Assembly (NCBI GenBank): GCA_019359745.1
Contig: JAHHGT010000002.1
Span: 186,001 to 250,000, forward strand
Length of the DNA: 64,000 nucleotides
Direction: 5' to 3'
Source of the DNA: Aphanothece saxicola GSE-SYN-MK-01-06B
GTDB lineage: Bacteria; Cyanobacteriota; Cyanobacteriia; PCC-6307; Cyanobiaceae
Positions 3,019 through 5,273 of this stretch are shown piece after piece (the first letter of the stretch is position 1; each line of letters opens with the position of its first letter). Under the pieces are notes generated by a model. The model made no database searches and had not been told where the DNA came from. It saw only the letters and a program-made list of their open reading frames with translations. A program made the translations under genes and the position numbers.

Positions 3019-3438
3019 ATGACCTTTGCGGTGGCGCTGGGGATGCTGGAGCGGGAGGGCCGCTGGCTGCTGCAGCTGCGGGACGACATCGAGGGAATCG
3101 TCCATCCGGGCTGCTGGGGCCTGTTCGGCGGCCACCTGGATCCGGGGGAGCGGCCGGAGCAGGCCGTCCTGCGGGAGCTGCAGGAGGAGATCGGCTGGGG
3201 GGCACCGTCGCTGCCGCTCTGGTTCGAGCACCACGATGCCCAGCTCAGTGCCTACTACTTCCGTGGCCCGCTCACGGTGCCCCTGGAGGCGCTGCAGCTG
3301 AACGAAGGACAGGACATGGTGCTGGCCGGCCTCGAGGCGCTGCAGAACGGTCAGATCTGGAGCCCCCGGCGGCAGGAGTGGCGCGGGCTGGCGCCCTCGC
3401 TCGAGCGGGCCGTGCGGCGACTTGGGCCAAAAAACTAA
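3019..3438 (+). CDS. Nudix hydrolase
   Basis: This 139-residue single-domain Nudix protein hydrolyses a nucleoside diphosphate linked to another group. The Nudix box is complete: G-HLDPGERPEQAVLREL-QEEIG, at about residues 40-60, containing the RELQEE metal-binding helix. The chosen ATG at 3019 begins MTFAVALGMLEREGRW, the usual first strand of the fold. Upstream in-frame starts would run into the divergent diguanylate cyclase promoter region. The exact substrate is not predictable. Confidence 0.85.
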   Translation: MTFAVALGMLEREGRWLLQLRDDIEGIVHPGCWGLFGGHLDPGERPEQAVLRELQEEIGWGAPSLPLWFEHHDAQLSAYYFRGPLTVPLEALQLNEGQDMVLAGLEALQNGQIWSPRRQEWRGLAPSLERAVRRLGPKN

Positions 3439-3659
3439 AAAATGGTGAGTGATACCTTAAGATCCGAAGTATCAGACGGCTTTCCTGCGTCTCATGGTTG
3501 ATGAGGATGCGCTTCCCGGCAAGATTCGCGACACTTGCTCGGAGCTCTCGCTCAGAGGCTGTAAGCGCAGCCGGCCCTCCATGGCGCCATCAGGGCTGCC
3601 CTCCCGTCCCGATTTCCTCCCATGAGCCGCGCCTTGAAGGGGCCCCCCGGGGTGCAGCG

Positions 3660-4679
3660 ATGACCAACGTCTGGTGCGTGCGCGCGGGCGGCGGAATGTA
3701 TGCAGACAATTTCCTCAGGGGCGGCTTCGTCGGCATCGGCTGGCGGGAGATCAGCGAGGATCTCGGCCCCGTCCAGACCCGGGAGCAGCTTTATGCGGTG
3801 GTGCGTCGCTACTTCCCGGACATCCAGAGCGCGATCCTGCTCTCCAATTACGTCAATGAGATCCATCGCTTTCTGTTTGAGATCCAGCCCAACGACCACG
3901 TCATCATTCCGTCGTCGGACACCGACCTTCTGATCCACGGCGTCGTGGACGAAGGCACGCCCTATTACGACCCCAGCGGAGACGACGGCTGCCCCCTGCG
4001 CCATCGGCGGCCCGTCACCTGGGCGGCCGAACCGATCCGGCTGGACCACTTCTCCACCCCGTTCCGGGATTCCATCCGAACCCTCCTTACCGTCCCGGCG
4101 CACACCCGGATGCGGTCGCTGTTGACGGTGTTCATGGTGGAGTACGAGGCCGAATTCATTCAGGCGATCCGTCAGACGGACACGGTGGCCTCAGCCCCGC
4201 CGGCCACCCGGAAGGAGTCGCACCGCATCGTGCTGGAACAGCTGATGCAGCTGACGCCGCCTGAATTCGAACGGCTCGTTGTTCATCTGCTCGACGCCCT
4301 GGGCTTTGAGGACTGGGAGCGGGCCGAGCACCACGGGGCGCTGCGCGATGTCTTTGATGCCTGCGGCGACATCAGCCTTTCGCTGCCCGCACGCATCCGC
4401 ATCCATGCCCGGTTTCACCGCGGCAACCTCGGGGCGCGGATCGGTGCCGATGCCGTGCGGGAACTGCGTCAGTTCATTCCCTTCGGCGGCCATGGCATCT
4501 ACATCACCACCGCCGATTTCCAGCCGGCGGCCGCGGCGGCGGCCGGGGAGGAGGGCTTCGCCAGGATCAGCCTGGTCAACGGCCAGCAGCTGGCCGACCT
4601 GATCGCCCGCCACTGGACCCATCTCCCCGGTGAGCTCCGGGACCGTCTTTCGCTCGAACAGGCCCTGGTGAGGAACTGA
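3660..4679 (+). CDS. Mrr-like restriction endonuclease-fold protein, degenerate active site
   Basis: The protein has 339 residues. Residues 1 to about 140 (MTNVWCVRAGGGMYADNFL...) match the N-terminal domain often fused to Mrr nucleases and may sense DNA or a ligand. From about residue 195 an Mrr-type PD-(D/E)xK fold is recognisable: LTPPEFERLVVHLLDALGF, then a strand reading ARIRIHARFH, then VRELRQFI, IYITTADF and LVNGQQLADLI. In active Mrr proteins the strand carries Q/E-x-K (IYIQCKR-like). Here the aligned residues are His and Arg, and the preceding GDGGID loop is reduced to RDVFDACG. DNA cleavage is therefore doubtful. The start is the ATG at 3660; an in-frame ATG further upstream at 3498 would add an unlikely leader. 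No methylase or specificity subunit is adjacent. A 57-residue membrane protein follows 4 bases after the stop. Confidence 0.75.
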   Translation: MTNVWCVRAGGGMYADNFLRGGFVGIGWREISEDLGPVQTREQLYAVVRRYFPDIQSAILLSNYVNEIHRFLFEIQPNDHVIIPSSDTDLLIHGVVDEGTPYYDPSGDDGCPLRHRRPVTWAAEPIRLDHFSTPFRDSIRTLLTVPAHTRMRSLLTVFMVEYEAEFIQAIRQTDTVASAPPATRKESHRIVLEQLMQLTPPEFERLVVHLLDALGFEDWERAEHHGALRDVFDACGDISLSLPARIRIHARFHRGNLGARIGADAVRELRQFIPFGGHGIYITTADFQPAAAAAAGEEGFARISLVNGQQLADLIARHWTHLPGELRDRLSLEQALVRN

Positions 4680-4683
4680 GGCC

Positions 4684-4857
4684 ATGCCGCCGCGATCCCG
4701 CCGCCTGCCACCAAAGCCCGGCAAGTCCAGGCCCGCCAGCCTCGCCAATGAGCCCGGCGGCCTGCGCCAGCGCCTGCAGATCCTGGCTGGGTTCCTGTTG
4801 CCGCTGCTGGTGCTGAGCCTCTGGCTCAACTCCCGCGGCTTCTTCGGCAGCCCCTGA
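4684..4857 (+). CDS. Small basic single-pass membrane protein (57 aa)
   Basis: The ORF begins MPPRSRRLPPKPGKS and has an arginine/proline-rich N-terminus. One hydrophobic helix follows (LQILAGFLLPLLVLSLWL), then a short tail SRGFFGSP. It starts 4 bases after the Mrr-like gene, so the two are probably co-transcribed. The positive-inside rule places the N-terminus in the cytoplasm. It resembles small conserved cyanobacterial membrane proteins of unknown role. It could be a partner of the upstream gene, but nothing in the sequence proves that. Confidence 0.6.
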   Translation: MPPRSRRLPPKPGKSRPASLANEPGGLRQRLQILAGFLLPLLVLSLWLNSRGFFGSP

Positions 4858-4859
4858 AC

Positions 4860-5273
4860 TCAGGGGAACGTGGGGCCACTGCCGAGCAGCTCCACCTCCG
4901 GATCGTCCCGGAAGATGGCCAGCAGCTCGCCGTGCAGGGTCTCCGCCCAGGGCGTCGTGTCGATCCAGCCGAACGTCCGCCAGTTCCAGATCCGCTCGGC
5001 GCTGGCCCCGTCGGTGCAGCAGAACTCAGCCCGATCCCCGTCGCTGGGGAGGCTGTAGACGCAGACCCCGAAGCGAAAGGGGGTGCCGGCCAGCTCCACC
5101 CACCAGCCCCAGTCTTCGCAGCAGACGAAGGGCACGTCCCGACCCAGGCGCTGCAGCTTCTCCTGCAGGTAGAGGGCCAGAGCTTTGCCCACCAGGCCCT
5201 CGTTCACCATCTCCTCGGCTTCGCCAGGCAGCAGGGGAAACCGGGCCGACCTCAGGTGGATGAATTCCTTCAT
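4860..5273 (-). CDS. Conserved hypothetical protein (137 aa)
   Basis: This is a soluble acidic protein rich in Trp and Cys (PFVCCEDWGWWVEL, RIWNWRTFGWIDTTPWAE). It has no signal peptide or membrane helix. The ATG at 5273 gives MKEFIHLRSARFPLLPGEAEEMVNEGLVGKAL split across helical segments. The codon pattern and defined hydrophobic strands suggest a genuine gene. It is convergent with the small membrane protein gene, with 2 bases between the stops. I do not recognise a characterised family; similar small proteins are often annotated as hypothetical in Proteobacteria and cyanobacteria. Confidence 0.65.
   Translation of the reverse strand: MKEFIHLRSARFPLLPGEAEEMVNEGLVGKALALYLQEKLQRLGRDVPFVCCEDWGWWVELAGTPFRFGVCVYSLPSDGDRAEFCCTDGASAERIWNWRTFGWIDTTPWAETLHGELLAIFRDDPEVELLGSGPTFP

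Follow-up and report, generated by a model that had tools for sequence, protein, structure and literature searches.

A conserved branch of reader-Mrr proteins with a replaced nuclease centre in Aphanothece saxicola and its relatives

What becomes of a restriction-type gene when the catalytic residues of its nuclease domain have been replaced: does it decay, or is it kept for another use? This question is raised by a coding sequence at positions 3660..4679 (+ strand) of a 64,000-nucleotide stretch of Aphanothece saxicola GSE-SYN-MK-01-06B (contig JAHHGT010000002.1, positions 186,001 to 250,000; hereafter the window). The sequence (ATG start, stop included) encodes a protein of 339 residues, which we call the reader-Mrr protein. 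The original prediction, made from the sequence alone, had offered two possibilities, a repurposed Mrr-type sensor or a decayed defence locus. In this study we found that a reader fold is fused in front of the Mrr fold, that the motif change is fixed in 13 of 13 orthologues and that the gene is under purifying selection, which fits the first possibility. Decay is rejected for the window copy, whose reading frame is intact without internal stop codons and whose ratio of nonsynonymous to synonymous changes (dN/dS) is about 0.2; fragments of the gene do exist in four other genomes. The architecture itself is already known, and comparison of the sequences indicates that the conserved HxR branch of the reader-Mrr family (PDC-S02, type IV-like), kept by certain freshwater cyanobacteria, is real and selected.

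Nuclease centre and reader fold

The comparisons were based on 13 distinct full-length orthologues, which are 73-94% identical to the window protein and all start at the same ATG (two duplicates were removed), and on 16 distant relatives aligned over their length, which are about 22-27% identical and form 7 groups at 70% identity. Among named records, Cyanobium sp. N5-Cardenillas comes closest, with 94% identity in the reader-Mrr protein. As the original prediction stated, the Mrr fold is recognisable: Pfam Mrr_cat (PF04471) matched residues 196-315 with 46.3 bits (cut-off 21; E 5.5e-12). Over its whole length the protein matched the PADLOC candidate PDC-S02 (442 bits for PDLC04806, E 3.2e-133); models 04819 and 04815 were also matched full length, and 04824 and 04796 in part. 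The NCBIfam profile search of the protein gave no match, and a sequence search against solved structures, run with the protein and with two profiles, turned up no meaningful match. The window's own genome has one further Mrr_cat match, weaker at 26.8 bits (L002 1501-1725, on contig C4 of G000).

The catalytic strand reads RIRIHARF, and H249-A250-R251 (4404..4412, +) occupies the place of (E/Q)xK in the relatives. This register was the same in an hhalign profile-profile alignment (probability 99.8) and in MAFFT, confirming the HAR reading of the strand. The GDGGID loop is likewise eroded, to GALRDVFD, but its final Asp, the catalytic one, is retained as D230 (4347..4349, +). All 13 orthologues have D230 and HxR at residues 249-251 (HLR in one, HAR in the others), while all 16 distant relatives carry D together with EVK, QVK or QAK at the equivalent positions (D...(E/Q)xK). 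Eight residues, D230, D233, H249, R251, R254, G255, N256 and R260, are invariant in the 13 orthologues. Among the columns that are near-invariant in the ExK group, 9 of 14 are kept in the reader and 7 of 21 in the nuclease part. Since the codons of D230, H249 and R251 differ synonymously between orthologues (both GAT and GAC for D230, three different synonymous codons for R251), these residues are held by selection on the protein.

A catalytic Glu-x-Lys placed elsewhere in the domain had been named beforehand as an observation that would speak against degeneration, and the alignment with Mrr catalytic sites revealed no substitute lysine in the nuclease domain. The only lysine of the window protein is K185. 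From residue 190 onward, the 13 orthologues are free of lysine except at the final two positions, where six of them carry one. Because the orthologous nuclease domains are thus devoid of lysine before their last two residues, the sequences indicate that no migrated catalytic lysine is available as a substitute. Type IV modification-dependent restriction enzymes are recognised by an intact centre; judged by its residues, the reader-Mrr protein does not have one, and for this reason it should not be filed as a type IV enzyme.

The replaced domain is nevertheless maintained. The median pairwise dN/dS over 78 orthologue pairs was 0.20 for the whole gene, 0.16 for residues 1-160, 0.56 for the linker, 0.18 for the nuclease domain and 0.17 for residues 228-262 (76 pairs defined). 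In the same genomes the neighbouring NUDIX and MOSC genes gave 0.22 (13 sequences) and 0.24 (12 sequences), and the reader-Mrr gene is constrained to the same degree as these neighbours. The nuclease domain of ExK-type paralogues (8 sequences) had a dN/dS of 0.08, at a much larger dS. The nuclease domain with HxR is under purifying selection and is less constrained than the ExK-type one.

In order of the chain, the protein consists of an N-terminal domain of residues 1-176 (3660..4187, +), which the model, structure matches and conservation characterise as a YTH/EVE-like reader fold of the PUA superfamily, and a C-terminal domain with Mrr/PD-(D/E)XK fold (residues 184-331; 4209..4652, +). The AlphaFold2 model was built on an alignment of 12 sequences and has a moderate mean predicted local distance difference test score (pLDDT) of 67.7. 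By blocks of ten residues the score was 69-86 up to residue 140, 39-70 for residues 141-190 (under 50 for 147-160) and 47-82 for residues 191-330. In Foldseek, MspJI (E 6.2e-7) and AspBHI (1.3e-5) ranked at the top, and YTHDF2 appeared at 0.015. VIA-align superposed residues 184-328 on AspBHI with Z 10.6 (138 residues aligned, root-mean-square deviation (rmsd) 3.5) and on MspJI with Z 10.3. Residues 1-174 matched the YTH domain of YTHDC2 with N6-methyladenine (m6A) DNA (9szp_A) with Z 9.6 (124 aligned, rmsd 3.1 A), and the reader domain matched MJECL36 (2p5d) with Z 9.4 (120 aligned, 3.4 A). Most entries of the structure-match list are YTH domains; the list mainly covers residues 1-176, and other families may match as well. 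Because Z scores of 7-8 may arise without true kinship, the predicted YTH/EVE-like assignment is good but not overwhelming. Six reader residues, R8, F18, W28, D79, R117 and W121, are shared by all 13 orthologues and by no fewer than 15 of the 16 distant relatives. Judged by its predicted fold only, the protein joins a reader to a nuclease in the manner of type IV enzymes.

Repeated loss and DNA methyltransferases

When losses and METHYLTRANSFERASES were surveyed in 42 genomes of the genus, 13 had the intact gene, four had fragments at the same place (G280, G286, G148 and G655) and 25 had no recognisable orthologue. The G280 remnant (L042 5001-5663) is an open frame of 221 residues left by two in-frame deletions; it keeps most of the reader, and one deletion removed the nuclease core. 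We defined the clade as the 19 genomes with MOSC identity of at least 84% (the next being 69%), which comprise the 13 intact genomes, the four with fragments and two without a copy, G298 and G301 (84% complete). The tree of NUDIX and MOSC sequences implies about five independent losses in this clade, with supports of 0.96 (G304 and G280), 0.98 (G005, G298 and G301), 0.74 (G148 and G250) and 1.0 (G286 with four intact genomes).

The number of N6_Mtase matches was 0-3 in the 13 intact genomes and 4, 6, 7, 7, 9 and 18 in the six non-intact ones (Mann-Whitney P = 3e-4; P = 0.002 without genomes under 90% complete). Moreover, other methyltransferase families (PF00145, PF02086, PF01555) exceeded the cut-off in 2 of 13 intact versus 5 of 6 non-intact genomes (Fisher P = 0.0095); in G655, one of the five, a stop lies inside the methyltransferase match. 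Genome size did not differ between the two groups (P = 0.6). The association of gene loss with methyltransferases is a lead, not proof. Mutual exclusion with an ExK-type paralogue was also considered, and the absence of overlap between the 13 intact and 5 paralogue-bearing genomes among the 42 was not significant (P = 0.14). Two of these paralogues (G148:C21:27462-30698 and G312:C465:3801-7046) lie on the same strand as an N6-adenine methyltransferase match and sit in possible restriction loci.

Neighbourhood and upstream leader

Every one of the 13 orthologue loci and of the four remnant loci has a NUDIX gene upstream, and the 13 orthologue loci also have a MOSC gene downstream (12 in one comparison, the thirteenth, G217, from another). 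The similarity of the reader-Mrr gene drops in step with that of its neighbours, and the best reading is that the gene is chromosomal and vertically inherited. Pfam identified NUDIX, MOSC, glutamine synthetase, GGDEF, aminotransferase and FAD-binding domains in the flanking genes. PADLOC on seven flanking proteins gave a single weak match, that of the NUDIX protein (window 3019-3438) to part of the candidate PDC-S07 model (31 bits). Distant relatives sit among restriction-type genes in two of four plasmid regions; the third region contains transposases and other genes, and the fourth is without annotation. On a Proteus mirabilis plasmid (L117 1-5008) a distant relative forms a row with genes for a DNA methyltransferase, a helicase and a GIY-YIG nuclease, which may together be one multi-gene system. 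No viral copy came up in the search that started from L090. Another search, from an ExK-type paralogue, led to two viral contigs that carry ExK-type copies, and the phage collection yielded two hits, both distant.

An open reading frame at 4684..4857 (+) begins 4 bases past the reader-Mrr stop and encodes a basic, single-transmembrane protein of 57 residues, exactly as described originally. The idea that it is a dedicated partner was rejected: nine of the 13 orthologue loci have it beside the gene, and the other four (L033, L035, L036 and L040) lack it there, the very observation that the prediction had named as speaking against a partnership. In addition, it is retained at all four loci where the Mrr gene decayed, and its relatives occur in other genera of the family, away from the reader-Mrr gene. 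Matches at E<=0.001, some of them weak, were found in 82 of 300 genomes of the family. Eighteen loci, several of them short, came from genomes in which the gene is neither intact nor present as a remnant; none of these loci showed a NUDIX, Mrr or MOSC gene beside the 57-residue relative. The protein is a common small protein of the cyanobacterial family and a mere neighbour here. This widespread family (window 4684-4857; loci L055-L072) shares the pattern ...LQIxAGxFxPMLxLGLWLNSxGFF. On the opposite strand, window 4860-5273 (-) encodes a conserved 137-residue protein with no Pfam match at E<=1; it lies between the reader-Mrr locus and MOSC in many relatives and was not found at L036, L040 and L042.

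The upstream stretch 3439-3659 had been described as more AT-rich and as holding short coding remnants. The first part stands: G+C content is 0.615 in the stretch and 0.689 in the window as a whole, although the value ranks 147th from the bottom among 1276 windows and is thus no extreme; for 3430-3530 it is 0.465. The second part does not: the KYQTAFLRLMVDEDALPGK frame is there, but it is closely preceded by an in-frame stop and is disrupted by indels in relatives, and the stretch is conserved non-coding DNA. This stretch, with the leader of the gene at 3440..3545 (+), was matched in 12 genomes in a DNA search of 60 relatives, 10 with the intact gene and 2 with remnants, and nowhere else; the carriers G217 and G268 were unmatched, yet the G217 copy aligns. 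In an alignment of 15 loci, the window among them, mean identity to the window peaks at 94% in the 20-base block 3500-3519; two copies of the gene agree at about 65% of their synonymous sites (median proportion of synonymous differences 0.35). By this comparison, the leader core is more conserved than synonymous sites. A structured RNA is unsupported (fold z-scores from -0.26 to 1.88 in five sequences; 1 of 19 pairs compensatory), the Rfam search returned nothing near gathering scores, and a sigma-70 promoter scan of the leader found none. Two motifs lie in the leader, the box CTTAAG(A/C)T and CTCAT-N5-ATGAG, the latter an imperfect inverted repeat. The TAAG(A/C)T box at 3458-3463 resembles the cyanobacterial -10 element (TANNNT) and is a putative one. 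The leader is probably a promoter or operator of the reader-Mrr gene.

Competing explanations and known systems

We consider the prospects about even that the gene encodes a vertically inherited reader of modified DNA, of type IV-like descent and with an inactivated or altered nuclease, which comes into conflict with host methyltransferases. Its ancestor would have been a chromosomal type IV-like (modification-dependent) restriction enzyme passed on by vertical descent. The N-terminal YTH/EVE-like domain may bind a modified base, as its fold and conserved residues suggest, m6A being the guess best in keeping with the YTH matches; the protein most likely works as a binder of modified nucleic acid (DNA or RNA). 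The E/Q and K of the Mrr fold would have been swapped for H and R before the clade diversified, and the HxR fold would no longer make the standard metal-dependent cut but could be kept as a DNA-binding or altered effector module. We infer a role in defence in which the protein would clamp or mark modified DNA instead of cleaving it, thereby hindering modified foreign DNA. Once a host gained DNA methyltransferases of its own, the gene would turn costly, and this proposed cost could be the reason for its repeated loss. In its most specific form, a clade-specific reader of modified (perhaps m6A) DNA whose D-H-R Mrr fold acts by clamping or unusual chemistry, with the methyltransferase conflict driving the losses, the proposal is tentative and as a whole rather doubtful.

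Several observations weigh against a methylation-conflicted reader. The structure model is of moderate confidence, with a mean pLDDT of 67.7 and block scores of 47-82 over residues 191-330, and no Pfam EVE or YTH match at E<=1 was found in the protein. When only long N6_Mtase matches were counted by hand on the printed part of the match list, the ranges overlapped (0-2 in intact, 1-11 in non-intact genomes; P = 0.009), and three of the five contrasts between a loss and its sister stayed clear while two no longer did. Assemblies without the intact gene tend toward more fragmentation (P = 0.08), and the association was counted for methyltransferase families only. Among intact genomes, G250 (PF00145) and G175 (PF02086) carry another methyltransferase family over the cut-off, G208 has matches below it, and 10 of the 13 have at least one N6_Mtase match. 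Furthermore, the ExK-type paralogue lies 1.4-3.7 kb from a methyltransferase match in three of five paralogue-bearing genomes (about 1.4 kb from N6_Mtase in G148 and G312, 3.7 kb from PF01555 in G257; no listed methyltransferase match is near the paralogues of G300 and G310), and therefore the architecture as such is compatible with methylation. Finally, a protein that does not cut need not harm a methylated host.

The repeated loss in methyltransferase-rich lineages is also the pattern of an active type IV enzyme, and together with the eight invariant residues it would suit a protein that is still a nuclease, a true modification-dependent enzyme with a non-canonical D-H-R centre in which E and K were replaced without losing catalysis. 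We consider this unlikely: (E/Q)xK has lost its acidic residue as well as its lysine, the domain offers no replacement lysine, and we know of no active PD-(D/E)XK enzyme with HxR. We judge just as unlikely an ordinary RNA- or DNA-binding task unrelated to phages, with the gene being lost through ordinary turnover of genes or because newly gained restriction systems made it redundant. The constant gene order with NUDIX and MOSC on the chromosome, the similarity falling in step with the neighbours, the metabolic or signalling nature of the flanking genes by Pfam, with only the weak PDC-S07 match from PADLOC, and the confounders of the methyltransferase association (assembly fragmentation, the long-match count) are in line with such a task, but the 442-bit match to a candidate defence family, the restriction-type surroundings of distant relatives in two of the four plasmid regions and the independence of loss from genome size are not. 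It seems quite improbable that the protein restrains an active Mrr-type enzyme of the same cell, as its brake or dominant-negative partner. Retained inactive PD-(D/E)XK domains have precedent in defence systems, at least in the accessible text of PMC11090510, and the window's genome has one other Mrr_cat match, but a search with the reader-Mrr protein gave a single match per genome, and no second, in the 13 intact genomes. Least probable of all, to the point of being hardly credible, is a defence gene in decay, for which the fragments in four other genomes speak; the intact window copy, its purifying selection and the synonymous codon changes at the replaced residues already contradict it.

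Compared with known systems, the C-terminal domain shares the Mrr-like fold of MspJI and AspBHI (Z 10.3-10.6); these enzymes differ in their SRA-like reader and are themselves active. A weak match of 18.3 bits to the hidden Markov model of NA-iREase1 (PF22722, NACHT-associated inactive REase), likewise a retained, inactivated Mrr-like domain, lies below the cut-off of 27, and there is no NACHT match in the protein or the flanking genes scanned; this match does not reflect inactivity, because an ExK relative scores better (28.9 bits). The full-length match places the protein in PADLOC PDC-S02, a predicted single-gene candidate for which PADLOC output makes no distinction between ExK and HxR, and which PMC11719660, in its accessible part, lists as a predicted candidate only. 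As far as the available text of Bell et al. 2020 (PMC7641849) goes, EVE-PD(D/E)XK proteins are described there as putative type IV (modification-dependent) enzymes and, like the window protein, carry a PD-(D/E)XK nuclease and a reader from the PUA/EVE/YTH group on a single chain; the window clade has HxR for the catalytic (E/Q)xK throughout, and no such branch is described in that text. Neither was a description of a conserved nuclease-degenerate branch found in the literature searched, which included the accessible parts of PMC10853773 and PMC7159879 and left most subscription papers outside. Inactivated PD-(D/E)xK domains also occur in type II/III CoCoNuTs, and YTH-like domains in type I CoCoNuTs, but according to the accessible text of PMC11090510 these are multi-gene McrBC-type GTPase systems.

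Automated annotation would label the gene a restriction endonuclease or a defence candidate and overlook its altered centre. The replaced centre is conserved in 13 genomes and can be set against relatives of the active type and against several independent losses. This provides a natural experiment: is it useful to bind modified DNA without cutting it, and does a 'dead' reader clash with the methylation of its host even so? In the examples examined, the known inactivated nuclease folds of defence systems are parts of larger assemblies, whereas this gene as a whole amounts to one fusion of reader and nuclease.
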